From the IMG/VR virus record IMGVR_UViG_3300049203_000284, positions 1 to 22,208 of that record: 22,208 nt of DNA; one strand, given 5' to 3'. Under the pieces are notes generated by a model. It saw only the letters and a program-made list of their open reading frames with translations. It searched no databases and was not told the origin of the DNA. Source of the DNA: a virus. Positions 7,701-22,208 of the stretch are shown here, piece by piece (the stretch's first letter is position 1; the number at the start of each line of letters is the position of its first letter). Made by a program: the position numbers and the translations under genes.

Positions 7701-8105
7701 TTCTCGCTCGTGGACGCTCTGAACCGCGACATGATCACGATGTTCGCGACGCTCGACGAGCTCGACTCAGCGCTCGGCGCCCCGGAGAACGACTTCTCGT
7801 CGAACTACCCGAACCTCGAGCACCTCAAGGAGGTGTACTTCAACCGCCTGACGGGGAAGCTGAACTTCCGCGCGTTCTTCGACTTCTTCCGCTGGTTCGA
7901 CTCCAGCGTGACCTACTTCGTCGAGCACCTCATCCCGCGCAAGACGGTGTACTACGGCACGAACTTCGTCGTCGAATCCCACCTGCTCGAGCGGCACAAG
8001 AAGCAGTACTTCCACTACGACATGTACTTGAGAGAGGCAAACAAGCCCCGCATCGAGGACAGAATCCTTCTCCAACAGATCGCTGGCGTGGCGAAGAGGT
8101 ATTGA
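4701..8105 (+). CDS. Large LamG/concanavalin-like baseplate structural protein
   Basis: This 1134-residue structural protein resembles large proteins of marine and jumbo myoviruses. The N-terminus carries FDRIVNGYPFDGSKKEHEKF and SLTGFEKWVLDNFPQNIGY (about 85-125). A LamG-type jelly roll lies about residues 155-313 (YTVEFHLHLPP, HIAGVYDRDD, LRLYVNGELS, GSLDELRVFTLAR). The middle (about 430-600) is alpha-helical and contains REFGIKMPNLFSDAAF and SKGTLHSIETFFRSIGID. A second concanavalin-like region is probable at about 620-860, ending in VMGLRFWSKAL. The C-terminus is rich in aromatic residues (FFDFFRWFDSSVTYFVEHLI). LamG folds commonly bind glycans, so outer-baseplate or receptor contact is plausible. 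Specific equivalence to T4 gp7 or gp10 cannot be shown from motifs. The TGA at 8103-8105 directly abuts the next ATG. Confidence 0.82.
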   Translation: MFLRPGLPTRFSVADLANVGRGSSRVVTLKGSDNPDSNYLSSASFAYDPYESGLKSTQQLKVDWTKFENHTFFNSAQAKVNVAFDRIVNGYPFDGSKKEHEKFVDSLTGFEKWVLDNFPQNIGYLNFGSDSHLSIQDYQGGVLPELAKLKTGAAVLDPLDKPYTVEFHLHLPPLASGGMVIVQKKHATENVGLCAYVKSGSSAATADVVWSVFSGSYSLIASASVSRDAFVHIAGVYDRDDTARLRLYVNGELSTTSSNSYVFDSITTYHAPLLVGSGSSFTADGSTFTPDTTLTGSLDELRVFTLARNSEQVKKYKTRNIFAQDGLALYYKFNEPTGSLSGDEATTGPNAIVLDSSGNGLHSYVTNFTFSLRSTGSIAAPLSNERLNLNPVIFPGFDEVQTLNSTLLLSASAYDQDNPNLITRLVPKHYLTDGQDHQGMSSEEGAINNGYEGDSIPGSGILGSTQLLLALLYSWAKYFDELKLFVDAFAKLHYVDYDSNDTSPDIFLPYALREFGIKMPNLFSDAAFAQYKDGEDVELSYSLNETSLYSVQNQIMRRVLTNMGEIVRSKGTLHSIETFFRSIGIDPNNSFKIKERGGPTRRGLDEARERRVEPMLFLDFRRGGVIQTPYLSGSRYEPGLPRIEGTVLENGTSNARNDGVWTSGSWTVEGTYRFAVTSSHAPSQSLVRVHTTGSTSPYEYLLANAVALSGTNPRIELHVRSGDGGTGTSPALSMSLDVDIFNGDPWYVSFGRFRHDLTGSLTKDHYFLRAGTERLGLGTFFSESVTLHRNVDGSDTDLWSNATTGKNAYGPFLRIGSGTIPVGSILLNDTANLDDKVRTTDFDGQVMGLRFWSKALEYAESLEHARNPYSAGVLNPHENYNFNSTASGTFQRLRIDASMQQRDDMSTSAGGTIQVFDYSQNNLHISGTDFPASARVLKPHVVGYNYISPNIDEAVTSDKVRVRSYDDTSKVRATPWASYTPVYEVPKNEEPQDDPRLSIEFSLVDALNRDMITMFATLDELDSALGAPENDFSSNYPNLEHLKEVYFNRLTGKLNFRAFFDFFRWFDSSVTYFVEHLIPRKTVYYGTNFVVESHLLERHKKQYFHYDMYLREANKPRIEDRILLQQIAGVAKRY
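8095..8099 (+). promoter_or_regulatory. Ribosome binding site for the 320-aa LamG protein
   Basis: AGAGG lies inside the end of the 1134-aa gene, 6 bases before the ATG at 8106. It is the last clear Shine-Dalgarno in the operon; the next starts appear to depend on stop-start overlaps. Confidence 0.55.
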
Positions 8106-9068
8106 ATGATCACCACCGCACCGTTCGACGACTCGCAGCAGAAGGACCGACGCAAGGCGACGGAGGACCAGAGCACCAGCACGTCGGAGCTCGATCCGCA
8201 TCGGCAGGGCGTCGAACTCTCTCAGACGAAGCACTACGCCTTCGGGATGGTCAAGATCCACTCAGGGGACAACGGGCAGAGCGGCAACCACCAGGTGTCG
8301 CACCTTACGCTCGGCCAAGGGCGACCGCGATTGCGCGATGAGACCTCCTTCCAGGAGGGTGTCAAGCTCAACCCGCTTGCGCGCTTCGAGAACCTCGCGT
8401 TCACCTTGCCGCCGAGTTTCGCAGACCTCCTTGGGCTCTACCTCGCGCACCTCTGGTCAAGCTACGACGGCGGTGTCTTCGCCGACACCGAGGGTGGGTG
8501 GCACCTTGACGCGACGGTCGGTGGCGCTGGCGCGGCACCTCCTGGCGCGACGGTCGGCGAACACAGTTACCCCGTCTTCGACGGCGGATTCACAACGAAA
8601 GGGCTCACACGCACCGGCAACTTTACAACCCTCGACGGGCTCGCTGATTGGACGATCTTCAGCGCTTTCAAGACGAATGCTGGTCAAGCGTACGGCGCGA
8701 TCCTCGACAAGGGAAGCGCGTTCTTCGTGGAGCTCAGCTTCGGATCCGGCTCCCCGTACATCACGATCGGAGCCGGCGGCGGCGCTGACATCCCTTGCAC
8801 GATCCCTGTCAACGACGATCAGTGGCACCGACTAATCGTCACGTGCACCGCGGGCACTGTGTCTGTCTACATCGACGGCGTCGCGGACGGGACGGACACT
8901 GGCGGCACGATCCCAACGGTCGTCAATGACGTGCTTCTCGGCGTTCAGCCAAGCAACACAGTGACTGACTCCGGCATCGCGGTCGTTGGCATCGCGACGC
9001 GAGGTTTGACAGGGTTGGAAGAGGTTTCTGAGCTCGACGGCTTGCTTGCCGCATGGGTGAGTGGATAA
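8106..9068 (+). CDS. LamG-domain tail fibre/baseplate protein
   Basis: This 320-residue protein has a polar N-terminus (about 1-110) and a C-terminal LamG-like jelly roll (about 115-318). The N-terminus includes LSQTKHYAFGMVKIHSGDNG, reminiscent of attachment regions of phage fibres. LamG hallmarks are LADWTIFSAFKTN, ILDKGSAFFVELSF, DDQWHRLIVTCTAGTVSVYIDG (hydrophobic strand, then the VYIDG turn) and the final TGLEEVSELDGLLAAW. It is likely a virion adhesin whose N-terminus docks to the baseplate and whose C-terminus contacts a surface glycan. That role is inferred from fold and position. The C-terminal part uses noticeably more A/T-ending codons than the genes upstream. The TAA at 9066-9068 shares its last base with the next ATG. 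Confidence 0.8.
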   Translation: MITTAPFDDSQQKDRRKATEDQSTSTSELDPHRQGVELSQTKHYAFGMVKIHSGDNGQSGNHQVSHLTLGQGRPRLRDETSFQEGVKLNPLARFENLAFTLPPSFADLLGLYLAHLWSSYDGGVFADTEGGWHLDATVGGAGAAPPGATVGEHSYPVFDGGFTTKGLTRTGNFTTLDGLADWTIFSAFKTNAGQAYGAILDKGSAFFVELSFGSGSPYITIGAGGGADIPCTIPVNDDQWHRLIVTCTAGTVSVYIDGVADGTDTGGTIPTVVNDVLLGVQPSNTVTDSGIAVVGIATRGLTGLEEVSELDGLLAAWVSG

Positions 9069-9529
9069 TGCAACCTATCGCAGAGATCAATGCAGCACTT
9101 CTTGAAGACGAAGCGTCTTGGGACGGGGCCATCGAACCCCTCCAGATCCGTGACGTCGTGTCTCGTCGCGTGCATCGGCTGAACATCGATCACAAGCTCT
9201 GGGGCGCTTTGGGTGAAGGTAACGTGCACGACCGCGAGGGTTCAGACGTCGTTGTTCACATCGTCAAGCACACAGAGAAGACCATCGGCTCGCACGCCAT
9301 GTTGGACAACGTGGACACGTACGGCAGCCTTGTAGCGGTCGTTGAGAGCGGATCGTCCGACACACGCACACGTGGGCCGTTCGTCGAAGACTACACGAAA
9401 AAGGGTACGATCAGTTCCACTAAGATGGAGAGTGACCTTGCTGCAGCCGTCGCCGCGATGGAACCAGGCACGGAGAACCTGATCCCCGACAGTTACGTGC
9501 AGCTCGGCTCAACCGGCTTCTTCTACTGA
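9068..9529 (+). CDS. Uncharacterised 153-aa structural-operon protein
   Basis: I do not recognise the family. The start is placed at ATG 9068, which overlaps the preceding TAA (TAATG), rather than the in-frame ATG at 9053. The 9053 start would overlap the LamG gene by 16 bases and add only MGEWI. The protein opens with a short acidic helix (INAALLEDEASWDGAI). A mixed segment LDNVDTYGSLVAVVESGSS follows, then GPFVEDYTKKGTISSTKMES, and it ends in an aromatic SYVQLGSTGFFY. It has no signal peptide or membrane segment. Being locked between fibre genes by one-base stop-start overlaps implies a virion or assembly role, for example a small connector or chaperone for the large paralogues that follow. 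This is inference. Confidence 0.75.
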   Translation: MQPIAEINAALLEDEASWDGAIEPLQIRDVVSRRVHRLNIDHKLWGALGEGNVHDREGSDVVVHIVKHTEKTIGSHAMLDNVDTYGSLVAVVESGSSDTRTRGPFVEDYTKKGTISSTKMESDLAAAVAAMEPGTENLIPDSYVQLGSTGFFY

Positions 9530-12500
9530 TGTTCACACCTGCCTCGTCCACGTTGCGCTACACGCTTCCACGCGCCGACCTGCGCGCGATGGACAGGCGG
9601 ACTGGCGCTTACCCGACGAAGGCCAGAACTGGCGATAGGACGCGGACCGGCAAAAACATCGTCTACTTCGATGACACACGCACGGTCGTCTTCACTGCGA
9701 ACGCGATGATCAATCTGCCGACGACGTTTGCGACGGGGACAAACCACCTCGCCGGCGACCTAACCAGCAGCTTCGTCGTCAGGGGTGGAGTGCAAGCGCA
9801 CGCTGTTGACCAGTGGATCAGTCACCGTGATCAGAGCGAGGCGCCCGGTCCGTTCGTCGAGCACTTCCTTTACGAGCAAGACGAGAACAACACTGCGAAC
9901 TCCCTGTTCATGACGGGGGTGGCGAATAGCATCGCTTCCGATCGATTCAAGTCGAAGATCTCGCAGAAGACGATCATCCGCATCGAGATCCCGCTAACGC
10001 GTTCGACGTCGTTGGAGCGTCTGACCGGATCGCTTCACTACCTCAACCCCAACACGCTTGGGTTCGACAGGGTAGCCAACGAGATCACTCGCAACGCGTA
10101 CGGAGGCGCACGTTTCCCGACGACCTTCGCACCGCTCCCGTTCACTCCGTACGGCTTTCACTTCCTGCCGATCAACCAGCACCCGTTCTCATCGCAACGA
10201 AACAACTACCAACTTCGTCTGAACTACGGCAAGATCCCAGGTTACGCCGGAGACGGCTCGGACGAGCTCTTTTGGCCTGGCGGAACAGCAACGCAGCATA
10301 CCATGCAGGTGACCGCCAGTGTGTTGAACAGTCGGCACAAGGCGAACTCGTCGCAGTCGATCGACCTCTCGCAGTACCTCTCGCATCCTTTCCTTCTGGA
10401 GAAGGCTGTCATCGAGATGCCGTTCGAGGCGGGTCCTGGCTGGTTGAACGACAACTTCAAGATGAGAGCGCCTGCCACGAACCCTGACGTTCTTGACATC
10501 GGTGGTCCGCTCATCACGTTCGCCTTGATGCGACAAGACTCGGATCAAAACGGTCACCGAGACGTCATCGCGTCGGGAACCGTCACATCAGCTCAAGACA
10601 TGGTGACCGGCTCTTACCACACGCTCACGTCTTCTAGCGGTGGATTTAACGACTTCGCGTATCTGCACGAAGGCGTCGGAGGATTTGTTGATCCCACTGT
10701 CGTCATCACCGGCACGTCGTCGCCGTCCGGATCGAGCAACTTCTTCACCGGATCCGTGAAGTTGACGATGGATCCAGCGGTCACGTCGCACGTTTACAGG
10801 ATGCGCGTGTCTGGCAGCAGCACTCTCGCTCGATTCGCACCCAACAGCTCGATCGACGTCGGCGCGAGAACCACTGAAGCTCTTGGAATGGCTTTTGGTC
10901 CGACGGGCAAGCGAACTGGCCTCACGTTGCAGACGTCGCGAAACGTTCTGGGGAACCACTTCGCGGTGTTCAGCGTTGACGAACTGGATGGGGCGACGAA
11001 GCCCGTCAAGGTCGTTGACACCCAGTTCGAGAACCTCGCACACGGCTTCGGCGGCTCCACCACGCGGTGCAAGGTGTACACGGACGTCATCTCGAAGACA
11101 GCGAAGAGCCCGTACCTGCTGTACCCTGAAGACAACCTCATCCTGGCGATCAACAAGCACCGCGCCGCAGGATCCACGATCGCTGCCGAGTGGACGTTCA
11201 ACGGCGCGAACACGTTCCGTACGCCGCTCGCTCTCACATCGTATCATGACGTCAAGATCCCAACAGGAACGCTTCGCATCACGTTGTATGGTGACCTCAT
11301 CAAAGAGGACCGCGAGTTCCACGACACGCTGAACCAGAGACTTGAAACCGCCCAGATCTGGGAGACGATCGGCGAGGATCCCGTTCTCGACCAGTTCGAC
11401 GTCGCGTACCCGCATGAGCTGTCCGGAAGCTACCTCGATCGAAACAACATCTTCGCGCAAGCCTCGTACCTCAAGGCAACCACGGTGTCTGAGGTTGTGG
11501 GCGTCGCGCTCTCGCCGTACCTCACTACGCTCGAATACCAGCGAGACGTCGGTCACTTCGCAGCCAACTCGCCTGCGACGCTGGAACAGACCTGGAGAAC
11601 GATCGGCTACACAGGAACGACGACGAACTACTGGGCCACCGCGAAGTACGCTTACGAGGTGAGGAAGAGCACCCGGAACCCCGTGCTGTTGAGCAACGAG
11701 CTGTTTTGGGACACGCGTCTGCTCCCTCCTCACGCCGCGATGGCGAGATGCAACCCCAACTACCTTCTCACCACGGATACCCTCTCGTGCTTGGAGATCA
11801 ACGCCGCGTATTCCGGGAACGTCAGCGACGTCCACGCTGGCCCGAGCATCGGCACAAGCGGGAACGGCATCCTCGACTGGTACATGACGTACCCGTACGA
11901 AGCTCGATACAGCGACATCGCGTACACGTTCTACGACGATCTCAAGAACGACGTGTTCAGGCGACCAACACCGGGCGCTCACTCGACAGCGTTGAAGCTT
12001 GAACAGCTCAACTACGATGAGATCTCGCTTGAGATCGGTTCTCTCTCTGGAACAGCTGGCAACTGCTCACGCTTCCGAGCGAGCGAAGGGCAGATCGAGG
12101 TAACGCGATGGGGCACAGGCTACGTCCCTCTGAAGAAGCCTGAGTTCATCAAGTACTTCTTCGGCGCCGGCACCGGTTTCAGTGAGATTGATAACAAGCA
12201 CGTGCGCCCGCGCGCGGTCAACAGCATCACAGCTGACCTGCGTGGATGGCGTTACGGCATGCTGAGTGCGTTCCCCGCGTACACGATGTCGATCTTCCGC
12301 AGGAGTCGGTACGGGCAGCTGCGTGACATGCTAGAGCAACGTCTAGACGGCAAGTTCTACGATCAGGGTGTAAAGGAAGGGCCGGTGCAAGTCAAGTTCT
12401 ACGACGCGAAAGGCAAGTTTACCGACCCTCTTCGTACCTTGTCTAGTAACTTGTCTCTCGAAGCAACGAGCTCGGTCCCGTACGTTGACGAGGTGAGCCG

Positions 12501-12561
12501 CAACCGGCCGGCCTACGACTTCTCCTACCTCAACATCACTCGAACAGCGATCTCTGACTGA
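9529..12561 (+). CDS. Large structural protein, first tandem paralogue (1010 aa)
   Basis: This 1010-residue protein belongs to no family I can name with confidence. It is clearly homologous along its whole length to the next gene. Shared landmarks are RSGAYPTK/RTGAYPTK near residue 25, FDDTRTV near 46, INLPTTF near 63, VDQW, ERFKSK/DRFKSK near 143, SHPFLLEKAVIEMPF near 290, YHDVKIPTGTLRITLYGDLI near 570 with EFHDTLNQRLET, DQFDV, and LRGWRYGM then RDMLEQRLD near 900-940. The regular alternation of polar and hydrophobic residues suggests mostly beta structure. No transmembrane or signal segment is visible. It starts at ATG 9529 inside TGATG, with no Shine-Dalgarno. A virion surface or outer-baseplate role is inferred from operon position. 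Confidence 0.82.
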   Translation: MFTPASSTLRYTLPRADLRAMDRRTGAYPTKARTGDRTRTGKNIVYFDDTRTVVFTANAMINLPTTFATGTNHLAGDLTSSFVVRGGVQAHAVDQWISHRDQSEAPGPFVEHFLYEQDENNTANSLFMTGVANSIASDRFKSKISQKTIIRIEIPLTRSTSLERLTGSLHYLNPNTLGFDRVANEITRNAYGGARFPTTFAPLPFTPYGFHFLPINQHPFSSQRNNYQLRLNYGKIPGYAGDGSDELFWPGGTATQHTMQVTASVLNSRHKANSSQSIDLSQYLSHPFLLEKAVIEMPFEAGPGWLNDNFKMRAPATNPDVLDIGGPLITFALMRQDSDQNGHRDVIASGTVTSAQDMVTGSYHTLTSSSGGFNDFAYLHEGVGGFVDPTVVITGTSSPSGSSNFFTGSVKLTMDPAVTSHVYRMRVSGSSTLARFAPNSSIDVGARTTEALGMAFGPTGKRTGLTLQTSRNVLGNHFAVFSVDELDGATKPVKVVDTQFENLAHGFGGSTTRCKVYTDVISKTAKSPYLLYPEDNLILAINKHRAAGSTIAAEWTFNGANTFRTPLALTSYHDVKIPTGTLRITLYGDLIKEDREFHDTLNQRLETAQIWETIGEDPVLDQFDVAYPHELSGSYLDRNNIFAQASYLKATTVSEVVGVALSPYLTTLEYQRDVGHFAANSPATLEQTWRTIGYTGTTTNYWATAKYAYEVRKSTRNPVLLSNELFWDTRLLPPHAAMARCNPNYLLTTDTLSCLEINAAYSGNVSDVHAGPSIGTSGNGILDWYMTYPYEARYSDIAYTFYDDLKNDVFRRPTPGAHSTALKLEQLNYDEISLEIGSLSGTAGNCSRFRASEGQIEVTRWGTGYVPLKKPEFIKYFFGAGTGFSEIDNKHVRPRAVNSITADLRGWRYGMLSAFPAYTMSIFRRSRYGQLRDMLEQRLDGKFYDQGVKEGPVQVKFYDAKGKFTDPLRTLSSNLSLEATSSVPYVDEVSRNRPAYDFSYLNITRTAISD
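11293..11328 (+). repeat. 36-base direct repeat, copy 1 (within first paralogue)
   Basis: These 36 bases are identical to 14343-14378, including all synonymous positions, although flanking codons for the same amino acids differ. The segment begins GACCTCATCAAAGAGGACCG and lies in the most conserved protein block of the two paralogues. Confidence 0.85.
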
Positions 12562-15548
12562 TGTACACACCTGTCACATCATCCCTCCGCTTCATCGAAC
12601 CGAAGGTCGAGATCTACACGCAGGATCGACGTTCTGGCGCTTACCCGACGAAGGTCAGAACGGGCGACAAGACAAGGAACGGCCGCAACGCGTACTTCTT
12701 CGACGACACACGAACCGTTCTGTTCTTGACGGGTGTCAACGTCAACCTGCCGACAACATTTCGAGTTAGCTCGACTCACCTCGCAAACGACCTGACCAGC
12801 AGCGTCGCCGTTCAAGGAAACGTGACGCCTGTCAACGTGGACCAATGGCTCGCGCATCGCGAACAGGTGCAGAGGCCAGGTCCCTTCAACGAGAGTTACC
12901 TCTTCGAGCAGACGGAAGTGAATCTCGTGAACTCCACGTTCATGACTGGTTCGGCGTACCACGTCGCGTCAGAACGTTTCAAGTCGAAGCTCGCGAACAA
13001 GACGATCATTCGTCTCGAGATCCCGCTCACAGCGGTCTCTCAACTCACTCCGTCGTCGTCGCTCCACTACCTCAACCCTACGTCCGGTGGCTTCATCAAG
13101 GTCGTCAACGACGAGCAATCGTTGACGACAAACGGTGGCGCGTACCCGTCAACGTTTGCTCCCATCCCGTTCACGCCGTACGGCATGCACTACTTGCCGT
13201 TGAACGACTCTGCAGCCAGCGGCTTCGGCACGACGTTCGAAGACGTCAGCGCAAGAACAGCTTACAAAAGGATCACAACGTACCAAGGAGATGGCACAGA
13301 CGCCGCCTTCTACAGCGCAAACCTCGGCTCGTCCTACGCGCAAGTCACAGCTAGCGTTCTGAACCCGGGTCATCGTGCAAGTGTCTCTCAATCTCTGAAA
13401 CTGTCTGACTACATCTCACACCCTTTCCTCTTGGAGAAAGCAGTCATTGAGATGCCGTTCGCTGCAGGTCCTGGGTGGCTGAACGATCGCTTTGGCATTC
13501 GTGAGATCCTTCAAGACGACCTCACGTACACCATCGACGCTGGTGGCCCGATGGTCACGTTCTCTTTGATGCGTCAAGACAAAGACTCCAACGCGTTTCG
13601 AGACATCATCGCGTCGGGCACGATCACGAACACGTTGGACATGACAACAGGCTCGTACACGGTGTGTTCAGCAGCCTACAACGGCGTCGGTGGATACACG
13701 GACGTCGTGTTCACACCCGAGGGGTTGGGGTGGTTCGCGAACCCAACTGTCGTGATCACCGGCTCGACGCTGAGCGGGTCCACCAACATGTACACCGGCT
13801 CGGTCAGAATGATCTTGGAGCCACAAGTCACATCGCACGTTTGGCGACTGCGTGCTTCTGGAAGCGCGACGTTCTACTACAACATCGGCAACAGCGGGGC
13901 CACCGCAGGTTCTTCTCGCTCAACCCGCGCTGACGGTGTCGCGTTTGGCCCGATCGCGCGTCGATCAAGCAAGTACATCGGCGCAGGTCGAAGCATCTTG
14001 GGGAACCAGTTCGCCCTCATCAACAACAAAGCGCTTGATAGCGCGTTGAACCCGGTGAAGGTGATGGATGCCCAAAACGAGAACCTTGCACAGGACTCCG
14101 TCGCGCCTCGATTCTTCAAGTCGAAGATCTACCACGACGTGATCTCGGCAACCACCAAGAGTCCATACCTGCTCTACCCCGAAGATGATCTCTTGTTTTG
14201 CTTGAGCAAGCATCGTGCCGTCGGCGCACAACACGCGAGCGATTGGAACATCCTGGGAGGCGACAGGCCGACCCCGAATCGTCTTGTCGCTTACCACGAC
14301 GTCAAGATCCCGACAGGGACTCTCCGCATCACGCTCTACGGCGACCTCATCAAAGAGGACCGCGAGTTCCACGACACGTTGAACCAGCGTTTGGAGACCG
14401 TTGAACTTTGGGAAAGCATTGGCTTGGAGCCCACCCTTGATCAGTTCGACGTGACGTATCGGAACGAGATGTCAGGAACGTACCTCGATCGCTTCAACGT
14501 TGTCAACGTTGTGAACCCTTCGCTGCAGGCAAACCTGAGCGCTTCTCGCGAAACACAGCAGTACTACAGCAACTTCGTCGAACATTCAAACCAGAGCGTT
14601 TGGTCAAACCAACACGTTTGGTCTCGTTCTCGCAGGATCCACGAACTGCAAAAGAGCAGTCGAGCGGCTGTCTATCAATCGACGTCTGAGATCTTTTGGG
14701 ACACGCGAATCCTGAACCCAGGCGAGCTCGTGCATCAGATCAACCCGACGCTAGTGCTGGCTGGGTACGACACAGGTGCCGGCCAGGTCCAGTATGGGTT
14801 GACAACCGGCGACGAGTTTTGGGGACCGGATCTCGCCGGCTCCATCCACACGACTAACGGCATTAAGGACTGGGGCATGCGTTTCCCATACGAACCGAGA
14901 AACCCTGTCGTCACGCAACAGTTCTCGGACACGTTGTCAACTCACGTCTTCCGTTACAAGCTCCCTGGCGTGTCGAGCATCGTTCGCAGTGAGATCAACT
15001 ACAACGACTTGACATACGAAGTCGGATCCGGGTCGTTGAAGTTGTTCGCAGGCGAGGCATCGCCGAACAGTCTCAGCGTGAACGGAATGAGAAAGCCAGA
15101 GTTTTTGAAGGCTTTCTTTGGAATTGGGTCTGGGCGCAGCAAACACGACAACCAACACGTCACCTACCGCACTACGGCGCTTCCGCTTGGCGCAACGTCT
15201 CCTGTGAACGCCGGAGTAAGGCTTCGCGGATGGCGCTACGGCATGATGTCCGCCTTCCCGACGCGCAACGTGACGATGTACCGCCGCGATCGGTACGGGC
15301 AGTTCCGCGACATGCTCGAGCAGAGGCTCGACAGCAAGTTCTTCGACAACGACACGGTCACGGTCCGTGAAGGGCCGGTCCAGGTGAACTTCTACGACCG
15401 CGACGGCAACCTGACCGACGCGGAGTTGACGCTGAGCAGCAACCTGTCGTACGAGGTGACGAGCTCGCTCCCGTACTTCGACGGCGTGAGCAGGAACCGA
15501 GGGGAGATCGATTACTCCGCCCTCAACATCTCGTCGGTGGTGTTCTGA
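12561..15548 (+). CDS. Large structural protein, second tandem paralogue (995 aa)
   Basis: This 995-residue paralogue of the preceding gene keeps nearly every landmark in the same order and spacing, with insertions and deletions mainly in the middle (about 650-860). The most conserved segment is 36 identical residues beginning YHDVKIPTGT near residue 578. The start is ATG 12561 in a TGATG overlap without a Shine-Dalgarno. By my hand count, 27 of 77 codons from 15000 to 15230 end in A or T, against 5 of the 105 sense codons from 15231 to the stop. The last ~320 bases therefore have a different codon habit from the rest of the gene. The first paralogue shows no such change at the equivalent place. 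The duplication suggests a hetero-oligomer or diverged adhesin pair, which cannot be decided here. Confidence 0.82.
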   Translation: MYTPVTSSLRFIEPKVEIYTQDRRSGAYPTKVRTGDKTRNGRNAYFFDDTRTVLFLTGVNVNLPTTFRVSSTHLANDLTSSVAVQGNVTPVNVDQWLAHREQVQRPGPFNESYLFEQTEVNLVNSTFMTGSAYHVASERFKSKLANKTIIRLEIPLTAVSQLTPSSSLHYLNPTSGGFIKVVNDEQSLTTNGGAYPSTFAPIPFTPYGMHYLPLNDSAASGFGTTFEDVSARTAYKRITTYQGDGTDAAFYSANLGSSYAQVTASVLNPGHRASVSQSLKLSDYISHPFLLEKAVIEMPFAAGPGWLNDRFGIREILQDDLTYTIDAGGPMVTFSLMRQDKDSNAFRDIIASGTITNTLDMTTGSYTVCSAAYNGVGGYTDVVFTPEGLGWFANPTVVITGSTLSGSTNMYTGSVRMILEPQVTSHVWRLRASGSATFYYNIGNSGATAGSSRSTRADGVAFGPIARRSSKYIGAGRSILGNQFALINNKALDSALNPVKVMDAQNENLAQDSVAPRFFKSKIYHDVISATTKSPYLLYPEDDLLFCLSKHRAVGAQHASDWNILGGDRPTPNRLVAYHDVKIPTGTLRITLYGDLIKEDREFHDTLNQRLETVELWESIGLEPTLDQFDVTYRNEMSGTYLDRFNVVNVVNPSLQANLSASRETQQYYSNFVEHSNQSVWSNQHVWSRSRRIHELQKSSRAAVYQSTSEIFWDTRILNPGELVHQINPTLVLAGYDTGAGQVQYGLTTGDEFWGPDLAGSIHTTNGIKDWGMRFPYEPRNPVVTQQFSDTLSTHVFRYKLPGVSSIVRSEINYNDLTYEVGSGSLKLFAGEASPNSLSVNGMRKPEFLKAFFGIGSGRSKHDNQHVTYRTTALPLGATSPVNAGVRLRGWRYGMMSAFPTRNVTMYRRDRYGQFRDMLEQRLDSKFFDNDTVTVREGPVQVNFYDRDGNLTDAELTLSSNLSYEVTSSLPYFDGVSRNRGEIDYSALNISSVVF
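14343..14378 (+). repeat. 36-base direct repeat, copy 2 (within second paralogue)
   Basis: Exact copy of 11293-11328, about 3.05 kb downstream and in the same reading frame of the second paralogue. A further 21-base identity links 9602-9622 and 12634-12654 in the N-terminal GAYPTK region. Confidence 0.85.
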
Positions 15549-16555
15549 TGGACCGCAAAACTTTCAAGAGCAAACCTTACCACACGAAGACCAAGCACAA
15601 CGGCGAGGTCGAGAAGGTCGTGGTCCCGGCCGACCTGGACGTCGGCGCCGAGACGATCCCCACGGACTTGCGTGTGCACGGGACCGCACGTCTTGCCGAC
15701 ATCGACGCCCCGATGAACTCGCTCGTCTTCGGGCATCGTCTAAGCGTGTCCGGCAGCGCCGCCGTCCCTTCAGCGAACGTCCCTTCGGCGTCAGCGCTGT
15801 ACCTCACGCCGTTCACGTCCAACGCGTTGTGCGTCCACAACGGCGACCATTGGCTCGTCAAGCAGACGAATATGGTCACGAAGTCGTTGAGCGCGCTAAG
15901 CGCGTCCAACCTCAACTACGACGTGTTCGCGTACTACGACACCACCCTTGACGTGATCGACCTCGACTTCTCGCCGTGGTCAGGCGCAACGACGAGGGAG
16001 ATCGCGCTCACAACGCTCGACGGCGTCCTCGTCAAGGGAAACGACACGACGCGACGCTACGTGGGCACCGTCAGGACCGTCGCCGCAGGCGTGGTCGCCG
16101 ACGCCGCCTCGCGACGCTTCGTCTGGAACTACTACAACCGTGTGCCAAGGTTTCTGCAACAGCCCAGTGAGGGCACCGATAGTTGGACTTACGCTGCCAC
16201 GAGCTACCGAGCGGCGAACGGTCAGACCGCGAACAGCTTCGAGTTCGTCATTGGGGATACAGAGCTCGTGAACGCAACAGTGCAAACGCTCGCGAGCGCT
16301 GGGACTTCAGGATGGGGATGCAGCGTCGGGATCGGCGTTGATTCGACAACTGTGAACTCCGCAAACATCTACGGAACCATCACGAACGCTTCACTGTACC
16401 AGCCTTGCATTGCGCAGTACAGCGGCACGCCGAGCGCTGGTTACCACCGTTTCACGTGGCTCGAGATCTCGGGCGGAATCACGATCACCTTTTACGGTGA
16501 CGTCGGCAACCTGACTTACTTCAACTTCGGCATGATGGGCAACGTTCGCGGGTAA
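15548..16555 (+). CDS. Tail fibre-type protein with FVWNYYNRV region
   Basis: This 335-residue protein closes the structural operon. Residues about 80-205 match a region I know from many phage fibre and tail-tip proteins: YLTPFTSNALCVHNGDHWLV, then SNLNYDVFAYYDTTLDVIDL, VLVKGNDTTRRYVGTV and RRFVWNYYNRVPR (about 189-201). The rest (about 205-335) is a glycine- and serine-rich beta-type tip (TDSWTYAATSYRAANGQTAN, YHRFTWLEISGG). It is likely a receptor-contacting fibre or decoration protein. A/T-ending codons rise from roughly 27 of 199 before the tip to about 39 of 136 in the tip by hand count, which fits exchange of the C-terminal domain. The start is ATG 15548 in TGATG. The stop lies one base from the stop of the convergent minus-strand gene. 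Confidence 0.82.
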   Translation: MDRKTFKSKPYHTKTKHNGEVEKVVVPADLDVGAETIPTDLRVHGTARLADIDAPMNSLVFGHRLSVSGSAAVPSANVPSASALYLTPFTSNALCVHNGDHWLVKQTNMVTKSLSALSASNLNYDVFAYYDTTLDVIDLDFSPWSGATTREIALTTLDGVLVKGNDTTRRYVGTVRTVAAGVVADAASRRFVWNYYNRVPRFLQQPSEGTDSWTYAATSYRAANGQTANSFEFVIGDTELVNATVQTLASAGTSGWGCSVGIGVDSTTVNSANIYGTITNASLYQPCIAQYSGTPSAGYHRFTWLEISGGITITFYGDVGNLTYFNFGMMGNVRG

Positions 16556-16556
16556 G

Positions 16557-17177
16557 TCACTCGCAGAACTTCATCGCCTTCCAATCACACTCGTAAAGCA
16601 TGCAGAACTGCTTCATGTCGAGCGCGGTCGCACACGGCGACGCCTTGTCAACACTTGGGAACATCACGCTCTCCTTCGGCACAGGGATGTGATCCAGGCC
16701 GACGAGGTGACCCGCCTCGTGGAAGACGACTTGACGGAAGAGCTTGGCGTTGCTCAGGCGTTCCGTGATCAAAGCGACGACGCGTGTCGTGCAGCTTGAC
16801 CTCGTGAACCCGAGCGTCTTGCCGTTCTCACGTGCGTCAAGCTTCCGAACGTCCTCGTTCAACGCGTTGACGCGGTAGATGTACGTGTCGTACGTGCATT
16901 CCCCCTTGCCGACCTCAGGGATCTCCTCCAAGGAAGGGTCGAAGGTGTAGTTCGCCACCTTGAACTTCACCGTCTCGTTCGTGTCTCTCTCCCAACGACC
17001 GAACTCGTCAACGATGATCTCGCGCTCCGGGCCGCCGAAGCTCTTGTCGAGGATCAGCGTGTATGTTGGGTTGTTCACATTCTTCTTGGGAACCGCAGCT
17101 CGCGGTTTCTGAGCGGAACAAGCGGTGAGGAGCACGACCGCGAAGACGAGAGCGACGCGGCAAAGGTGACGCAGCAT
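16557..17177 (-). CDS. Metzincin (matrixin-like) zinc metalloprotease lipoprotein
   Basis: This 206-residue predicted lipoprotein has basic residues R3, H4 and R7, a hydrophobic core, and the lipobox LTAC with C20 as the likely lipidated residue. The mature part ends in a full metzincin zinc site HEAGHLVGLDH (153-163), with H153, H157 and H163 as zinc ligands and E154 as the general base. A Met-turn candidate VMFPS (M172) follows at the usual short distance. This arrangement is typical of matrixin-like and archaemetzincin-like proteases. Six or more cysteines in the mature part (C94, C129, C182, C192, C197, C205) could form disulfides outside the cytoplasm. It is the third gene of a minus-strand set, 8 bases after the SGNH gene, without an obvious Shine-Dalgarno. 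Substrate unknown; envelope or extracellular protein cleavage is inferred. Confidence 0.85.
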   Translation of the reverse strand: MLRHLCRVALVFAVVLLTACSAQKPRAAVPKKNVNNPTYTLILDKSFGGPEREIIVDEFGRWERDTNETVKFKVANYTFDPSLEEIPEVGKGECTYDTYIYRVNALNEDVRKLDARENGKTLGFTRSSCTTRVVALITERLSNAKLFRQVVFHEAGHLVGLDHIPVPKESVMFPSVDKASPCATALDMKQFCMLYECDWKAMKFCE

Positions 17178-17185
17178 AAATGTAA

Positions 17186-17668
17186 CTAGAGGCGCTTCAA
17201 TGCTTCAGCGAGCCAACGTCCTGGTTCGCTTGTGTGCACCCCGTCTGGCAGCTTCAGCCCGAGCGTTCGACTGTCCAGGAAGGCGCAAGTCCCGTCGGCC
17301 TCGACCTCCTTCTTGAGGTGATCCGCCGCTGGACCGCGGTGCTTGGGCATGTCCGGCGGGCCGACCCACACGCACTTCGTGCCCTTGAGCTTGGCGAGAA
17401 TAGGCTTGGGATCCGGCTTGCGGTACCAGTCGTTGCTGCCGAGGAACACGATGACGATGTCGCCGGACACGATGCCGGCCTCGTCGATCTTGGTGTGCCA
17501 CTGCTGCGTGCTTGTCCCACCTTTGCAGGTGATCTTCATCGCCTTCGACAAAGGGGTGTAGCGCATCGAGCACGCTTGGGAGTCGCCGACGATGTGGGTC
17601 GTGGCCGGCGGAGGGACATCAACGTCGGCGGTCGTGAGGAGGATCAGCAGAAAGGTGAGGAATGTCAC
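17186..17668 (-). CDS. Small exported SGNH/GDSL-type hydrolase
   Basis: This 160-residue protein has all four SGNH landmarks. Block I is GDSQ (28-31, nucleophile S30), block II glycine is in KGGTS (G50/G51), block III is GSND (77-80, N79), and block V is DGVH (142-145, D142 and H145). SGNH enzymes are usually esterases, lipases or carbohydrate deacetylases, and 160 residues is near the minimum. The first ~14 residues (FLTFLLILLTTA) form a hydrophobic segment that could be a signal peptide, but it has no positive charge, so export is less certain. Cysteines at 33, 48, 99 and 128 would fit a periplasmic protein. The start is GTG 17668, 8 bases after the ATP-grasp stop and preceded by AGGTGA. 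Likely co-transcribed with the ligase and the protease. Confidence 0.82.
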   Translation of the reverse strand: MTFLTFLLILLTTADVDVPPPATTHIVGDSQACSMRYTPLSKAMKITCKGGTSTQQWHTKIDEAGIVSGDIVIVFLGSNDWYRKPDPKPILAKLKGTKCVWVGPPDMPKHRGPAADHLKKEVEADGTCAFLDSRTLGLKLPDGVHTSEPGRWLAEALKRL

Positions 17669-17676
17669 TCACCTAC

Positions 17677-18474
17677 TTACCCGCCTTTTGCTGCCTTTTC
17701 GAGATCGTCCATTGCCTGGTTCATCACCTTGACGATCTCCTTCTCGACCGTCGCGTGCAGGGTGACGCCGGGGAAGTGGTTGTGCTCGAGGAACCTGAAG
17801 GTGCCGTCTGCGCGCACGATGTAGTCGATGCCTGAGATGGGGAACCCGAACAGGTCGTGCACTCCTCGGGCGTGCTCGATGAGCGCTTGATCGAGCTCGA
17901 TCTCGAATGTCACGGCCCCAGGCGCGTTCTTGATCCAGTTGTGGTCGTTGACGTACTCGACGCCGCCGACCACGTCGTTGACGACGTACACGCGCACGGA
18001 CCTGCCCTCGACGTACGGCTCGAGCGTCGCCAGGCCAGGCCAGTACGGGAAGTCCTCCCCGGCACGGACGAGCATCTTCCCTTCGCCGACGTGCATGTTG
18101 CCGACCTTGACGACGGTGTCACGCGTCGCGGTGTGCAGGCTCCAGTGCGAGAACTCGATGTCGTCAACGAACCCGTGGGACAGGCAGGAGAACAGCTTCG
18201 TTCGTCGATCGCTCCACATCTCGAGGAGCTCAAGGCTCGGCCAGCATGGCACACCTGTCTCGCGGAGGACCCGCTGGTTGCGGAGGCAGAGGTTGTCGTC
18301 GTCGATGGAGCAGTACCACAAGACAGCGTCGAAAGCTCGCGGAATCGCCCCATACGTCATCGCTGTCCCGAAGGCGCGCATGGGCCTCGCGACGGTGGTG
18401 TGCTGCCACCCGTTGCGCTTGATGCACAACGGCAGGGTGGCAGTCACTTCTCCGCTCAAGAACAGGTAACTCAA
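17677..18474 (-). CDS. ATP-grasp domain ligase-like protein
   Basis: About 265 residues from the TTG at 18474. The frame stays open to an ATG at 18576, but that longer start would overlap the plus-strand 75-aa gene and add an Arg-rich, unstructured leader. TTG 18459 and GTG 18447 are further alternatives. ATP-grasp features, numbered from 18474 (subtract 34 from the long form), are TVVKVGN (nucleotide-binding lysine about 123), the glycine-containing loop HVGEGKML, TLEPYVEG (about 150-157, adenine-contacting Glu), YVVNDVVGGVEYV, ISGIDYIVRADG (about 213-224) and the metal-binding RFLEHNHFPG (E about 230, N about 232). The family activates a carboxylate with ATP and joins it to an amine or thiol. 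RimK-like members are the nearest in pattern. The substrate cannot be read from sequence; peptide, protein-tail or small-molecule ligation are all possible. Confidence 0.78.
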   Translation of the reverse strand: MSYLFLSGEVTATLPLCIKRNGWQHTTVARPMRAFGTAMTYGAIPRAFDAVLWYCSIDDDNLCLRNQRVLRETGVPCWPSLELLEMWSDRRTKLFSCLSHGFVDDIEFSHWSLHTATRDTVVKVGNMHVGEGKMLVRAGEDFPYWPGLATLEPYVEGRSVRVYVVNDVVGGVEYVNDHNWIKNAPGAVTFEIELDQALIEHARGVHDLFGFPISGIDYIVRADGTFRFLEHNHFPGVTLHATVEKEIVKVMNQAMDDLEKAAKGG

Positions 18475-18497
18475 GGCAGCTTTGTTACGTAGAAGGT

Positions 18498-18725
18498 ATG
18501 GCAGTGACGAGCGCTTCTTACCTCGCCATCTGCGAGGGGGACGACGGGATCCCCCTGTGGCGTTTGCCGCCGACAAGAGACAACATCCCGTTGAACAACG
18601 TCGTCGTCTGGCTCCCCCCGTACCACGCGTGCGTCGTGGTGCACGATCAGGACGACGAGACGAGCCTCGTCGTTCACGATGGGCACGTCGCGTACGCCGT
18701 CACCGCCTGCTTGTTTGAGATCTGA
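18498..18725 (+). CDS. Small uncharacterised protein (75 aa)
   Basis: Lone plus-strand gene between two minus-strand sets. The ATG at 18498 is preceded by AGAAGG very close to the start (one base away), so initiation may be weak. Codon use is strongly G/C-ending (for example GTCGTCGTC and CTCCCC runs), matching real genes of the window. The protein has an acidic start (AICEGDDGIPLWRL), then NVVVWLPPYHACVVVHDQDD and DGHVAYAVTACLFEI, an alternating pattern suggesting a small beta protein. No family is recognised. Its stop is one base from the stop of the convergent lipoprotein gene. Confidence 0.6.
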   Translation: MAVTSASYLAICEGDDGIPLWRLPPTRDNIPLNNVVVWLPPYHACVVVHDQDDETSLVVHDGHVAYAVTACLFEI

Positions 18726-18726
18726 G

Positions 18727-19326
18727 CTACTTCCGAACGCGGAAGCCTTCGACGAACTCCGCGCAGATGGGGAGGATGCGCTCGCCGTCCTCGGCCGCGC
18801 CGCCGCAGCTGATCACGAAGCCGAGCTTGCCGCTGGTCACCGCGAGCGTCACGAACATCTGCACGCCGCTGGAGGTCATTCGAACCTCGATGAGCTCGTA
18901 CGCGCGTGTCCCGTCGAGGCGCACGATGCGCTCCTTCAGGACCTTGGCGTTGTCACGGCCGTTCGCCTCAGCGCGGACGTCGTCGAGGAACGAGGCCGCC
19001 TCTTCGGGCGTCAGGTTCGCAGCGATGACGGCGGCTCGAACCGACGTCTCCTCGTCGAGATCGTTCTCGAAGATGGCCATGAGCTGCGGCTCCTTCGCGT
19101 CAGCGGGGAGATCCACGTAGTTGACGAGGGACCAACCGTCGGTGGCCTCAAGATTGAACGGGGGAGCCGCCTTCTTGGGCTTGACGACCTCGAACTTGGG
19201 AGGCTCAGGCTTCGCGGCGACCTCAGGGGTCTTCGCGACGATGGGTCCGGAGGAAGTCGCAGGCTGCTTGTGACAGCCGACGGTCAGCGCGACGATGGAG
19301 GCGAGGAAAGCAAGTTTCTTGAACAT
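18727..19326 (-). CDS. Putative lipoprotein, possibly PsbP/DcrB-like
   Basis: This 199-residue protein has a classic lipoprotein leader: basic MFKK, a hydrophobic core LAFLASIVALTV, and cysteine C18 in a lipobox-like LTVGC (threonine at -3 is less usual). A Pro/Lys-rich linker follows (about 19-55). The globular part (about 57-199) has FNLEATDGWSLVNY, QLMAIFENDLD, an acidic helix LTPEEAASFLDDVR, then LDGTRAYELIEVRM, MFVTLAVTSGKLGFVISC and a closing helix PICAEFVEGFRVRK. That strand-helix order resembles PsbP/DcrB-like periplasmic domains, which I state with low certainty. It lies 9 bases after the 97-aa gene, so it is probably in one transcript with it. Role unknown; other phages encode lipoproteins that block superinfection (T5 Llp, TP-J34 Ltp), and this is one possibility. 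Confidence 0.75.
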   Translation of the reverse strand: MFKKLAFLASIVALTVGCHKQPATSSGPIVAKTPEVAAKPEPPKFEVVKPKKAAPPFNLEATDGWSLVNYVDLPADAKEPQLMAIFENDLDEETSVRAAVIAANLTPEEAASFLDDVRAEANGRDNAKVLKERIVRLDGTRAYELIEVRMTSSGVQMFVTLAVTSGKLGFVISCGGAAEDGERILPICAEFVEGFRVRK

Positions 19327-19335
19327 GCAGACATG

Positions 19336-19629
19336 CTAGCCTGCGGACGCTGCTGGCCCGGCGGCGCTCATCAACGTGACGTACTGCTCCGCCGCCGCGA
19401 TCTCGTGAGGCTGCCACCCGGTGTGCTTGCAGAAGGCCTGCACCGCGAAGTGAGCCATGAACGTGGACACCTTCGGGGCCGGCGCGCTCGTGAGAGCCGA
19501 GTACGCGTCGTGGACGAACTGGAGCGCCTCGGCGAGCTCGAGCCGCGGGCCGTCGGTGTACTCGCCTGTCTTGTCGTTGAAGACGCTCAGCCTCTTGCTG
19601 TCGCCGTCGATCAGGTTCTTGGTCGTCAT
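19336..19629 (-). CDS. Uncharacterised 97-aa protein
   Basis: No family recognised. Two in-frame ATGs are present, at 19635 and 19629. The second is chosen because AGAGG (19636-19640) stands 6 bases before it but directly touches the first. The protein starts polar (MTTKNLIDGDSKRL), has an acidic helix LELAEALQFVHDAYSAL, then APKVSTFMAHFAVQAFCKHTGW, then HEIAAAEQYVTLMSAAG. It is probably a soluble, mostly helical cytoplasmic protein. The Shine-Dalgarno overlaps the TAG of the preceding 66-aa gene, so the two are likely translated together. Confidence 0.68.
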   Translation of the reverse strand: MTTKNLIDGDSKRLSVFNDKTGEYTDGPRLELAEALQFVHDAYSALTSAPAPKVSTFMAHFAVQAFCKHTGWQPHEIAAAEQYVTLMSAAGPAASAG

Positions 19630-19635
19630 GCTCAT

Positions 19636-19640
19636 CCTCT
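19636..19640 (-). promoter_or_regulatory. Ribosome binding site deciding the 19629 start
   Basis: AGAGG on the minus strand overlaps the upstream TAG and leaves a 6-base spacer to ATG 19629. The competing ATG at 19635 would have no spacer. Confidence 0.6.
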
Positions 19641-19839
19641 AAGCCTTCTTCTTCTGAAGGTCCACTGCCTCGTTCCACTCCTGGACGGTCCACCCACACT
19701 GCTCGAGGATCCTCTCGAACACGTGGGCGTGCCAGCTTGCTCGCGGAGGCTCGCAACCGGGCATCGCTTCGAGAGCTTCTGCCGTGCTCCACCACGTCTC
19801 AACCAGCACGTGAAACTCAGGCTTCGCGTTCTCGTCCAT
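19639..19839 (-). CDS. Small uncharacterised protein (66 aa)
   Basis: First gene of the minus-strand set that ends in the lipoprotein. The protein runs PEFHVLVETWWSTAEALEAM, then CEPPRASWHAHVFERIL, then a tryptophan-rich helix CGWTVQEWNEAVDLQ and a KKKA tail. It is a probable small helical cytoplasmic protein with no family match from memory. The ATG at 19839 has only a weak upstream purine run (GGGTTGG). The shared compact layout with the next two genes and the divergent regulatory gap upstream support it being real. Confidence 0.6.
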   Translation of the reverse strand: MDENAKPEFHVLVETWWSTAEALEAMPGCEPPRASWHAHVFERILEQCGWTVQEWNEAVDLQKKKA

Positions 19840-19939
19840 GCCAACCCATCGTCATGCTCTCGCGACACGATCTTCGCTCTTGAGTTGCAAAATGTTTCAA
19901 GAGGACTGACGCGCCGCCGGGCGTCGTAGTGTTGCTGGC
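19840..19939. promoter_or_regulatory. Divergent intergenic region
   Basis: This 100-base gap separates minus-strand genes starting at 19839 from plus-strand genes starting at 19940, so promoters for both are expected here. It is locally A/T-richer in the middle (TTGCAAAATGTTTCAA). I see no convincing sigma70-type -10/-35 pair on either strand. It holds the inverted repeat at 19877-19903 and a weaker GC-rich hairpin (GACGC 19908-19912 with GCGTC 19921-19925). Confidence 0.5.
19877..19903. promoter_or_regulatory. Perfect 7-bp inverted repeat, candidate operator
   Basis: CTCTTGA (19877-19883) and TCAAGAG (19897-19903) flank a 13-base A/T-rich centre. Arm centres are 20 bases apart, roughly two helical turns, which suits a dimeric DNA-binding protein better than an RNA hairpin. 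It is centred in the only divergent promoter region of size in the window. Confidence 0.5.
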
Positions 19940-20215
19940 ATGAACGACACACGCACGAAGGACGGCCCCATCCACTTCTACCCCACTGCCGATCGCGACG
20001 CTTTCGTCGCTAACGTTGTGGAGTACTGCGTCCAGATCGGCGAGCATCAGCCGCTCACGCGCTCGCAGGCCGCGTATCTCGTCATATCCAAGCAGGTCTT
20101 GGTGGACGGCACGCCACTGACGAACCTCGTGTCGCGTGTCCCGAGCGGGACGTGGGAGATCTCCATCCGCGGCCGCAAACACCACGTCGTCGTGCACCAA
20201 GCGATCGTCGAGTGA
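19940..20215 (+). CDS. Putative S4-like RNA-binding small protein (91 aa)
   Basis: Residues about 40-88 follow the S4 RNA-binding pattern. TRSQAAYLVISKQVLVDGTP gives the helix, the 'xxVxVDG' strand-turn, then LVSRVPSGTWEISI in place of the usual 'V..GD.I.V' closing strands, with a basic end RGRKHHVVVH. S4 domains bind structured RNA and occur in ribosomal protein S4, pseudouridine synthases, tyrosyl-tRNA synthetase and Hsp15. Here it stands alone behind a short N-terminal part (PIHFYPTADRDAFVANVV). The start is ATG 19940 with no clear Shine-Dalgarno. The last base pair of codons overlaps the next gene (GTGA at 20212-20215), implying coupled translation. A role in controlling translation during infection is inference; the S4 call itself is moderate. 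Confidence 0.68.
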   Translation: MNDTRTKDGPIHFYPTADRDAFVANVVEYCVQIGEHQPLTRSQAAYLVISKQVLVDGTPLTNLVSRVPSGTWEISIRGRKHHVVVHQAIVE

Positions 20216-20502
20216 GACGTCGGAAGCGTCGGCACGACGAGCCGAACGCGAAGGTCATCACGTTCTACGACCTTGAGCTGGGTGACGTCCTCCTGGACGA
20301 CGACGGACAGCTCTACCTTGTCACCGAACTAACGGAACCCGAGTACTGGAAGCTCATGGATGAGTCGATCACTCGCTTCAAGATGGTTGGCTTGGTCAAC
20401 ACCAACTGCATGTCGGGTAACGCCCGACCTAGAAGCGAGGTCGGAACATTCGACTATCGCACGTGGATCTGGCACAGCCGCGAGGGCTGCCTCATCCTTT
20501 GA
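20212..20502 (+). CDS. Small basic-tailed uncharacterised protein (96 aa)
   Basis: The start is GTG 20212, which overlaps the TGA of the S4-like gene (GTGA). The frame also runs further upstream inside that gene, but starting there would be a long overlap with arginine-rich shadow sequence. The N-terminus RRRKRRH is strongly basic. It is followed by a probable beta-barrel-like segment ITFYDLELGDVLLDDDGQLY and LVTELTEPEYWKLMDES, then MVGLVNTNCMSG and FDYRTWIWHSREGCLIL. Basic tail plus small beta fold suggests nucleic-acid binding, alongside its S4-like partner. Its 3' end overlaps the convergent methyltransferase gene by 11 bases. Confidence 0.68.
   Translation: MRRRKRRHDEPNAKVITFYDLELGDVLLDDDGQLYLVTELTEPEYWKLMDESITRFKMVGLVNTNCMSGNARPRSEVGTFDYRTWIWHSREGCLIL
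20412..20444 (+). other. Two overlapping, mutually exclusive hairpins inside the 96-aa gene
   Basis: GTCGGG (20412-20417) can pair with CCCGAC (20423-20428) around a 5-base loop. Alternatively CCGACCT (20424-20430) can pair with AGGTCGG (20438-20444) around a 7-base loop. They share bases 20424-20428, so only one can form. No U-tract follows. GC-rich coding sequence makes chance pairing plausible. Confidence 0.35.
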
Positions 20503-21676
20503 TCCAAGCCTTCCAGGCTCGGGTGTTGTCGTGCGTCCACTCGCGCTCACCCGTGAGAGTACCACGCTCCAGACCGGTGACGTCGCCGTTGAGGCAACGC
20601 TTCACGCTCTCGGCGATCCAACGGCCAGACGCGACGGGGATGCCCTTCCCGAGCCACGCACATGTCTTGTATTCGGCGAGCGACCAGTCCTCGGGGTAGC
20701 CGAGTGCTCTCGCGCCCTCGCGGAGCGTGAGGACCCGCGGCTTGGTCGGGTGGACGGATTCCTGAAGCTTGCCGGTGATGACGGGGCAAGGCGCGTCGGC
20801 CGCCCAGCGACGAGGCTGGTACTGATCGGCTCGGAACTCGCGTCGTTCGAAGTACTTGAGGCGCGGTGTGTCCCACGAGTCGAGGTCACGTAGGGCTTGG
20901 ATGCCGTGCGCTTCCACGTACCGCTTCGCCGCCTGGCTGACGCACTCCCGCGCGTTCCACTCGACGCCGGTCTCCAGCAGTGACTTGATGCGTCGAGCCT
21001 CGGCGGTGTTTGGCGTGTGGTTGCCGTCGCGGCCGGGGACGTCCGGCATGAGGACATCGACCGCGCGCGGCACGACGCCTTCGAGAGGGGTCGGCAGGAC
21101 GCCGAAGGGGATGCGCGAGACGACGAAGAAGTAGCGTGGGCGGTCGCTGTTGCCGCCGCACGAGATGTTGTTGTGGAAGACGTGGTGGAGGTCCCAGTCG
21201 TGACCAGAGAGCGCCTCCAGCTTGTCACGAAGTGTCTTCATCAACGGCAGGCCAAGCTTGCCGGCCTGCTGGACCGACTCGAAGACCACGACCTGAAGCT
21301 CCGGGCACTTCGCCGCGTACTCGATGATGTCGTGCATGCACGAGTTGATGCTCGAGTTGATGCCGCGAAAGCCGTTCGTCCACTCGGACACCGGTGTGTT
21401 CTTCTTGTCCGTGCCCTTCACGGGGACGTGAACGCTGCGGACAGAGAACCCTGAGCACGGCGGGTTGGCGAACAGCGCTTCGGCCGCGGTCGGCGTCCAG
21501 AAGCGTGCCTCGCTGGCCTCCAGCTGCCACTTGTGCCCGAGGATGTGACGGTTGGACGTGGCCGCTGCGGCTCCGAACGCCGACTCCCCCTCTCGCTTCG
21601 CGACGAGTTCGAAGCCCGCCTGGACCACGCCCACGGTGAAGCCGCCGGCGAAACAGTACACGTCGATAGATCGCAT
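20492..21676 (-). CDS. Cytosine-C5 DNA methyltransferase (ESV-type motif VI)
   Basis: This 394-residue protein carries the ordered C5-methyltransferase motifs. Motif I is DVYCFAGGFTVG (5-16, AdoMet binding). Motif IV is ANPPCSGFS (70-78) with the catalytic C74. Motif VI is FESVQQ (132-137) where ENV is usual. Motif VIII is NSDRPRYFFV (176-185). The target-recognition region is about 190-310. Motif IX is RVLTLREGARALGYPEDW (314-331), and motif X is GKGIPVASGRWIAESV (343-358). It transfers methyl from S-adenosylmethionine to cytosine C5 in DNA, probably protecting phage DNA from host restriction or priming further base modification. I recall ESVQQ-type relatives in actinobacteriophages, unchecked. 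The start is ATG 21676 with a weak Shine-Dalgarno. It follows the P-loop gene by 46 bases on the same strand. Confidence 0.85.
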   Translation of the reverse strand: MRSIDVYCFAGGFTVGVVQAGFELVAKREGESAFGAAAATSNRHILGHKWQLEASEARFWTPTAAEALFANPPCSGFSVRSVHVPVKGTDKKNTPVSEWTNGFRGINSSINSCMHDIIEYAAKCPELQVVVFESVQQAGKLGLPLMKTLRDKLEALSGHDWDLHHVFHNNISCGGNSDRPRYFFVVSRIPFGVLPTPLEGVVPRAVDVLMPDVPGRDGNHTPNTAEARRIKSLLETGVEWNARECVSQAAKRYVEAHGIQALRDLDSWDTPRLKYFERREFRADQYQPRRWAADAPCPVITGKLQESVHPTKPRVLTLREGARALGYPEDWSLAEYKTCAWLGKGIPVASGRWIAESVKRCLNGDVTGLERGTLTGEREWTHDNTRAWKAWIKG

Positions 21677-21722
21677 GTACGGATTCTACGCGGTCCGTCT
21701 CCACACCCGAACCAATTCTCTG

Positions 21723-22208
21723 TCAGAGCAGGAAGTCTGCCTTCGCGTCGAAGACGACGACGCCGCACTGCAAGAAGTGCCGGAGATCACCGATCGCCTG
21801 GTCTCGCTCCTTGCGCCAGGCTGTCTCTGAATCGACGATGACCAGCGACGGCTGCCTTCCGTGCACGCAGTGGCGCACGCCGGTCATCCACCACACGTTC
21901 TTGTGAACAACGTTGGGCTGCAAGTGGGAGTGGATGTTGCCGCTCTCCTTTTTGAAGGCTCTGAAGATCCTGCTCGTCACCTCCTTCGCGCGTTTCATGT
22001 CAGACACGAGAAGTGTCACGTCAGGCGAGGTCATCGCCATCGCGATCGCCGCCGTTGTGGCCCCTTGCTGCCTGCCCCAGTGCGACGTGTACGTGAGGCT
22101 CTTGTCGTTCGCCGCTTGCCACGCGAGCGCGTACGCTTCAAGGAGGCGGTAGGGTTGGTGCGGAAAGTCCGCGTAAGGAGGAGGGCTCCTCAGCTGCGAG
22201 TTCTTCTC
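21723..22208 (-). CDS. P-loop NTPase-like protein with degenerate Walker A, C-terminal part (5' end outside window)
   Basis: The minus-strand frame is open without a stop from the right window edge to the TGA at 21723-21725, giving 161 visible residues. An ATG at 22040 is therefore internal, not the start. Numbered from the edge, the segment WGRQQGATTAAIAMA (44-58) looks like a Walker A loop preceded by a strand (SLTYTSH) and followed by a helix. Then VTLLVSDMKRAKEVTSRIF resembles the second strand-helix of terminase- or helicase-like ATPases. QPSLVIVDSETAW (about 119-131) is a Walker B candidate with D126. The Walker lysine is replaced by alanine (A50), so ATP hydrolysis may be lost or altered. 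The N-terminal PPPYADFPHQPYRLLEAYALAWQ region is helical. Function is unknown; nucleic-acid-linked ATPase ancestry is inferred. Confidence 0.7.
   Translation of the reverse strand, partial: EKNSQLRSPPPYADFPHQPYRLLEAYALAWQAANDKSLTYTSHWGRQQGATTAAIAMAMTSPDVTLLVSDMKRAKEVTSRIFRAFKKESGNIHSHLQPNVVHKNVWWMTGVRHCVHGRQPSLVIVDSETAWRKERDQAIGDLRHFLQCGVVVFDAKADFLL

Follow-up and report, generated by a model that had tools for sequence, protein, structure and literature searches.

A predicted lipid-anchored, matrixin-like metzincin of a large phage and its possible role at the host envelope

The metzincin gene and its neighbours

The DNA analysed here (the window, 22,208 nucleotides) is a 22-kb virus fragment, and coordinates of the genes and features at the locus are collected in Table 1. 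The earlier note had placed a phage-encoded metzincin lipoprotein here without naming a strand; the reading frame lies on the minus strand, and its product scored 26.1 bits against Pfam PF00413 Matrixin (Peptidase_M10; cut-off 24), which bears the assignment out. The plus strand of the same interval is interrupted by a stop and holds no convincing gene. Baseplate J, gp25-like and further tail genes on the same contig agree with a phage origin.

Table 1. Coordinates of the predicted metzincin, its sequence features and neighbouring genes in the window
Feature	Coordinates	Strand	Basis
Metzincin lipoprotein gene, 206 aa	16557..17177	(-)	ATG at 17177, stop at 16557; ORF, Pfam, L009 copy, model
Leader and lipobox, residues 1-20 (LTAC, Cys20; +2 Ser)	17118..17177	(-)	Sequence; lipidation predicted
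Zinc site HEAGHLVGLDH, residues 153-163	16689..16721	(-)	Sequence; kept in 18/19 family members
Met-turn candidate SVMFP, residues 170-174 (ESVMFP in context)	16656..16670	(-)	Sequence; M172 nearly invariant
SGNH-like exported protein, 160 aa	17186..17668	(-)	GDSQ, GSND, DGVH blocks; 52% identical L009 copy
DcrB-like lipoprotein, Mog1/PsbP-like fold, 199 aa	18727..19326	(-)	37% identical L009 copy; model
99-aa protein, no assigned function	19336..19635	(-)	51% identical copy at the same place in L009

The zinc-site residues are H153, E154 (numbered correctly in the earlier note), H157 and H163. Translated in six frames, the whole window contains a single HExxHxxGxxH pattern, against 0.003 expected from composition. 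The mature protein contains three histidines only, every one inside the zinc motif, so a structural zinc site of the MMP type would be lacking. The leader, MLRHLCRVALVFAVVLLTAC, matches the lipoprotein signal pattern (lipobox LTAC, Cys20), as expected from the membrane anchor proposed earlier. In E. coli, serine at position +2 after the lipobox cysteine favours the outer membrane. The pro-domain and cysteine switch of vertebrate MMPs are absent, with 17 residues separating Cys20 from the first strand of the structural model at residue 38. The gene product is very probably an exported, matrixin-like metzincin of a large phage; export, lipidation at Cys20 and catalysis are predicted from its sequence. 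No sigma-70-like promoter was found within positions 15400-22208.

The SGNH-like reading frame stops 8 bases ahead of the metzincin start. All three SGNH blocks (GDS, GxND and DxxH) are present in its product and kept in the copy on the related contig L009; its Pfam Lipase_GDSL_2 score was 18.7 bits, below the cut-off of 32.9. The neighbouring lipoprotein was modelled with pLDDT 70, the model being unreliable before about residue 54, and its best structural match was DcrB (Z 13.5 over 113 residues), with PsbP, LpqN and EagT6 also matched. Both this protein and DcrB bear a lipoprotein leader or are described as lipoproteins, and identity between them is 11%. A TIMP-like fold was absent from the structure-match lists of this lipoprotein. 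Between the genes for the SGNH-like protein and the lipoprotein lies a RimK-like ATP-grasp gene (17677-18576, minus strand); in L009 this place is taken by a putative HNH gene (read by eye).

L009 (genome G008) is a 107-kb virus contig that shares with the window the gene order 98/99-aa protein, DcrB-like lipoprotein, SGNH-like protein, metzincin and tail genes. Its copies of the four non-tail genes are 37-52% identical to those of the window, and its tail genes are up to 72% identical at the amino-acid level. The L009 metzincin (44% identical, at the same place) retains the zinc motif and Met-turn candidate, carries TASC at the lipobox position (a weaker lipobox) and differs from the window gene most frequently at codon position 3. 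The L009 contig includes, among the matches listed, PhoH, RtcB, a ClpP-like head protease, head closure and many sugar genes (epimerases and glycosyltransferases), gene content that identifies the relative as a large tailed phage with a capsid protease of its own. The separate ClpP-like head maturation protease also makes it probable that the metzincin is distinct from the capsid protease, as the earlier note had implied. Elsewhere in the window, a C5 cytosine DNA methyltransferase gene (20492-21676, minus strand) has a similar gene on the L009 contig. Tandem plus-strand genes at 9529-12561 and 12561-15548 encode proteins of 1010 and 995 aa, each about 48% identical to one and the same L009 protein, and so probably arose by duplication. 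Tail-region proteins with Laminin G/concanavalin-like domains are encoded at 4701-8105 and 8106-9068 (plus strand).

Predicted fold and relatives in large phages

An AlphaFold model of the metzincin was generated from a five-row alignment (pLDDT 79.5, pTM 0.73). In this model, H153 and H157 share one helix (144-158), and the loop directly after H163 (164-171) is of low confidence. M172, nearly invariant in the family, is at the expected place for a Met-turn, the loop there being modelled with low confidence. Comparison with matrixin catalytic domains gave Z 13.0 for karilysin and about 12-13 for MMPs over about 140 residues, Foldseek concurred, and searching the family profile against PDB chains returned MMP-1 as best match (E 9e-8). 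The protein is thus predicted to have the matrixin catalytic fold. The earlier note had proposed structure prediction as a check, a fold in which the three histidines do not meet speaking against it; the model instead aligned about 144 residues with matrixin catalytic domains, in agreement with the proposal at the level of the fold. Pfam score, motif and fold match together uphold the earlier description of a matrixin-like metzincin with a complete zinc motif.

Scanning viral and genome contigs with the single sequence yielded no relatives, a two-row alignment scan found the L009 contig alone, and the five-row-alignment search confirmed 23 loci. A tblastn search gave no more than weak partial matches in phage records and none in plasmids, and a pattern scan found no close bacterial relative. 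The resulting family spans some 20 viral contigs, many of them longer than 100 kb and the largest 447-481 kb. The family alignment holds 19 rows including the window; duplicates, three short 110-aa proteins and the divergent L173 were left out. W62, R140, E154, G156, H157, G160, L161, D187, C192 and C197 are invariant across these rows and H153, H163 and M172 nearly so, the zinc motif being intact in 18 of the 19. All family members share a hydrophobic N-terminus and, at the C-terminal end, the signature D-x4-C-x4-C; the leaders vary, some bearing a lipobox and others resembling a plain membrane anchor. The tree pairs the window with L009 at full support, and deeper forks are mostly weak. The Matrixin cut-off was also passed by L009, L019 and L056, with L041 below it at 22.2 bits. 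At L160 (7956-8627), RELGHELGLPS replaces the zinc motif, probably marking loss of the zinc site and an inactive form. A broad motif scan yielded at least 118 distinct ORFs, at least 63 of them of at most 260 aa and at least 37 with a hydrophobic N-terminus, counts that imply no prevalence. The 323-kb contig L094 encodes a pair of large proteins, of 633 and 601 aa, both with a metzincin motif.

Proposed function and its alternatives

Exported phage metzincins as such are already known. In Listeria prophages, the metzincin Mtz and the TIMP-like lipoprotein Tim raise sensitivity to phage lysis in a manner dependent on the proteolytic activity of Mtz; Mtz cleaves Tim, and the pair often lies downstream of holin-lysin genes (PMC8235301). 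For the window, we propose that a large contractile-tailed phage would make a small matrixin-like zinc endopeptidase during infection, which the host would export and acylate at Cys20, holding it in the envelope, probably at the outer membrane. Having no pro-domain, the enzyme should be active once exported and loaded with zinc. Its most likely targets would be host envelope proteins, whose cleavage would weaken the envelope and thereby favour lysis and the release of virions; the SGNH-like protein and the DcrB-like lipoprotein may contribute. A contribution to envelope breakdown at lysis is favoured over receptor removal or superinfection exclusion, though as a tentative preference held at somewhat less than even confidence, and both the substrate and the lysis role are inferred.

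An attack on the host envelope is suggested by the large-phage relatives, some of which lie near cell-wall-lysis genes. Inspection of the neighbourhoods of relatives found a GH25 gene about 1.4 kb from the family metzincin at L158, at L171 a gene whose product has a peptidoglycan-binding domain, at a distance of about 2.1 kb, and a weak glycoside-hydrolase-like match near that of L019. Other exported phage metzincins lie near endolysin genes at L054 (Phage_lysozyme) and L117 (M15). Where the earlier note had envisaged action on host surface proteins or on the receptors of competing phages, the loci of these relatives speak at least as strongly for a part in lysis. Other readings were rejected: a neighbour in L118, amidase-like by eye, lacked support from Pfam, PHROG and PDB, and family support was likewise absent for a holin-like membrane protein in L118 and for spanin-like genes in L054 and L121. 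Several findings weigh against the lysis reading: no lysis gene, holin-lysin genes included, was recognised beside the metzincin in the window, or among the matches listed for L009 (both contigs being fragments); a nine-member branch, L152 to L166, has membrane-anchor-like leaders and RNA ligase and phosphatase-like genes as neighbours, not lysis genes; the L009 lipobox is weaker; and no TIMP-like partner was found. The neighbourhoods therefore suggest a link to lysis, and do so only for some of the metzincin family.

The lipoprotein leader with its +2 serine and the DcrB-like neighbour would also suit an anchored protease that clips surface or periplasmic proteins of the host on which other phages depend, the lipoprotein participating, for example, as a decoy. 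By the title of Samsonov 2002, as cited in PMC13136074, E. coli dcrB controls DNA injection by some phages, and the many sugar genes of the related 107-kb phage would fit surface remodelling. However, the Mog1/PsbP fold is common, occurring in immunity proteins and chaperones among others, and so shows no function, and the literature searched offered no phage case of a metzincin acting in exclusion. Receptor removal or superinfection exclusion is regarded as doubtful. That the enzyme cleaves a co-encoded lipoprotein or other exported protein and so frees or activates it is unlikely, even with Mtz and Tim as precedent (PMC8235301). A lipoprotein gene does lie nearby in the window and in L009, and three stand near the metzincin of a 472-kb phage, but the two lipoprotein groups are only weakly alike (hhalign probability 16%, P 0.0016), the window lipoprotein has no detectable likeness to that of L110, an Mtz-like locus described below, and its fold resembles PsbP/DcrB. 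The three genes lie in a row at L145 (12359-13991, minus strand) and may encode relatives of the window lipoprotein, with which they share a C-terminal CGG...C...F pattern; a baseplate J match marks the 472-kb record as a tailed phage.

More improbable still is a cargo gene of bacterial origin, neutral with respect to lysis and exclusion but useful to the host, for example in nutrition or in defending it against other microbes. Matrixins occur widely among bacteria (5 of 14 control genomes scored above the Matrixin cut-off), and a weak NCBIfam match was to a myxobacterial metalloprotease; against this, the family extends across many large phages with a common C-terminal cysteine signature, a spread that, with no close bacterial relative found by the pattern scan, would fit long residence in phages. 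Returning to envelope attack by the phage itself, the anchored metzincin, SGNH-like hydrolase and DcrB-like lipoprotein could conceivably form one cassette acting as a unit on the host envelope, a previously undescribed lysis or exclusion module whose metzincin family has spread through many large-phage lineages, although we consider this speculative.

Comparison with known systems

What appears to be new is the predicted lipid anchor, the large-phage setting and a conserved set of neighbours, comprising an exported SGNH-like protein and a lipoprotein that is DcrB-like (Mog1/PsbP fold). A text search found no papers on large-phage metzincins, most subscription journals lying outside its scope. 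The means by which very large phages break or remodel the host envelope are poorly known; an envelope-anchored protease would be a means distinct from endolysins and spanins. Residues for direct testing can be taken from the family alignment.

Like the window protein, Mtz is a phage-linked, exported metzincin with HEXXHXXGXXH and a Met-turn (a candidate in the window protein), and Mtz-like L110 matches the family profile (E 5.7e-9 over 96 columns). The exported metzincin of L110 (2387-3508, minus strand) adjoins a lipoprotein gene and has a tail tape measure gene nearby, and its 39% identity to a Listeria phage protein suggests perhaps an Mtz-Tim-like pair. The systems differ in that the leader of Mtz is of the signal peptidase I type and the lipoprotein of the pair is Tim, whereas the window protease itself carries the lipobox; in that the window phage is large and probably infects a Gram-negative host; and in that a TIMP-like partner was not found in the window. 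The window would extend the Listeria case to what are probably Gram-negative hosts. Karilysin of Tannerella forsythia resembles the protein in fold (Z 13.0, 144 residues, 3.2 A), zinc motif and Met-turn candidate, but shares 18% identity, and the window protein lacks the structural zinc histidines and cysteine-switch pro-domain of MMPs. Phage-annotated proteins of the Peptidase M10 type also have a similar predicted fold; examples are a Zn-dependent protease from Lactobacillus phage 3-521 and entries from uncultured Caudovirales, at about 14-16% identity.
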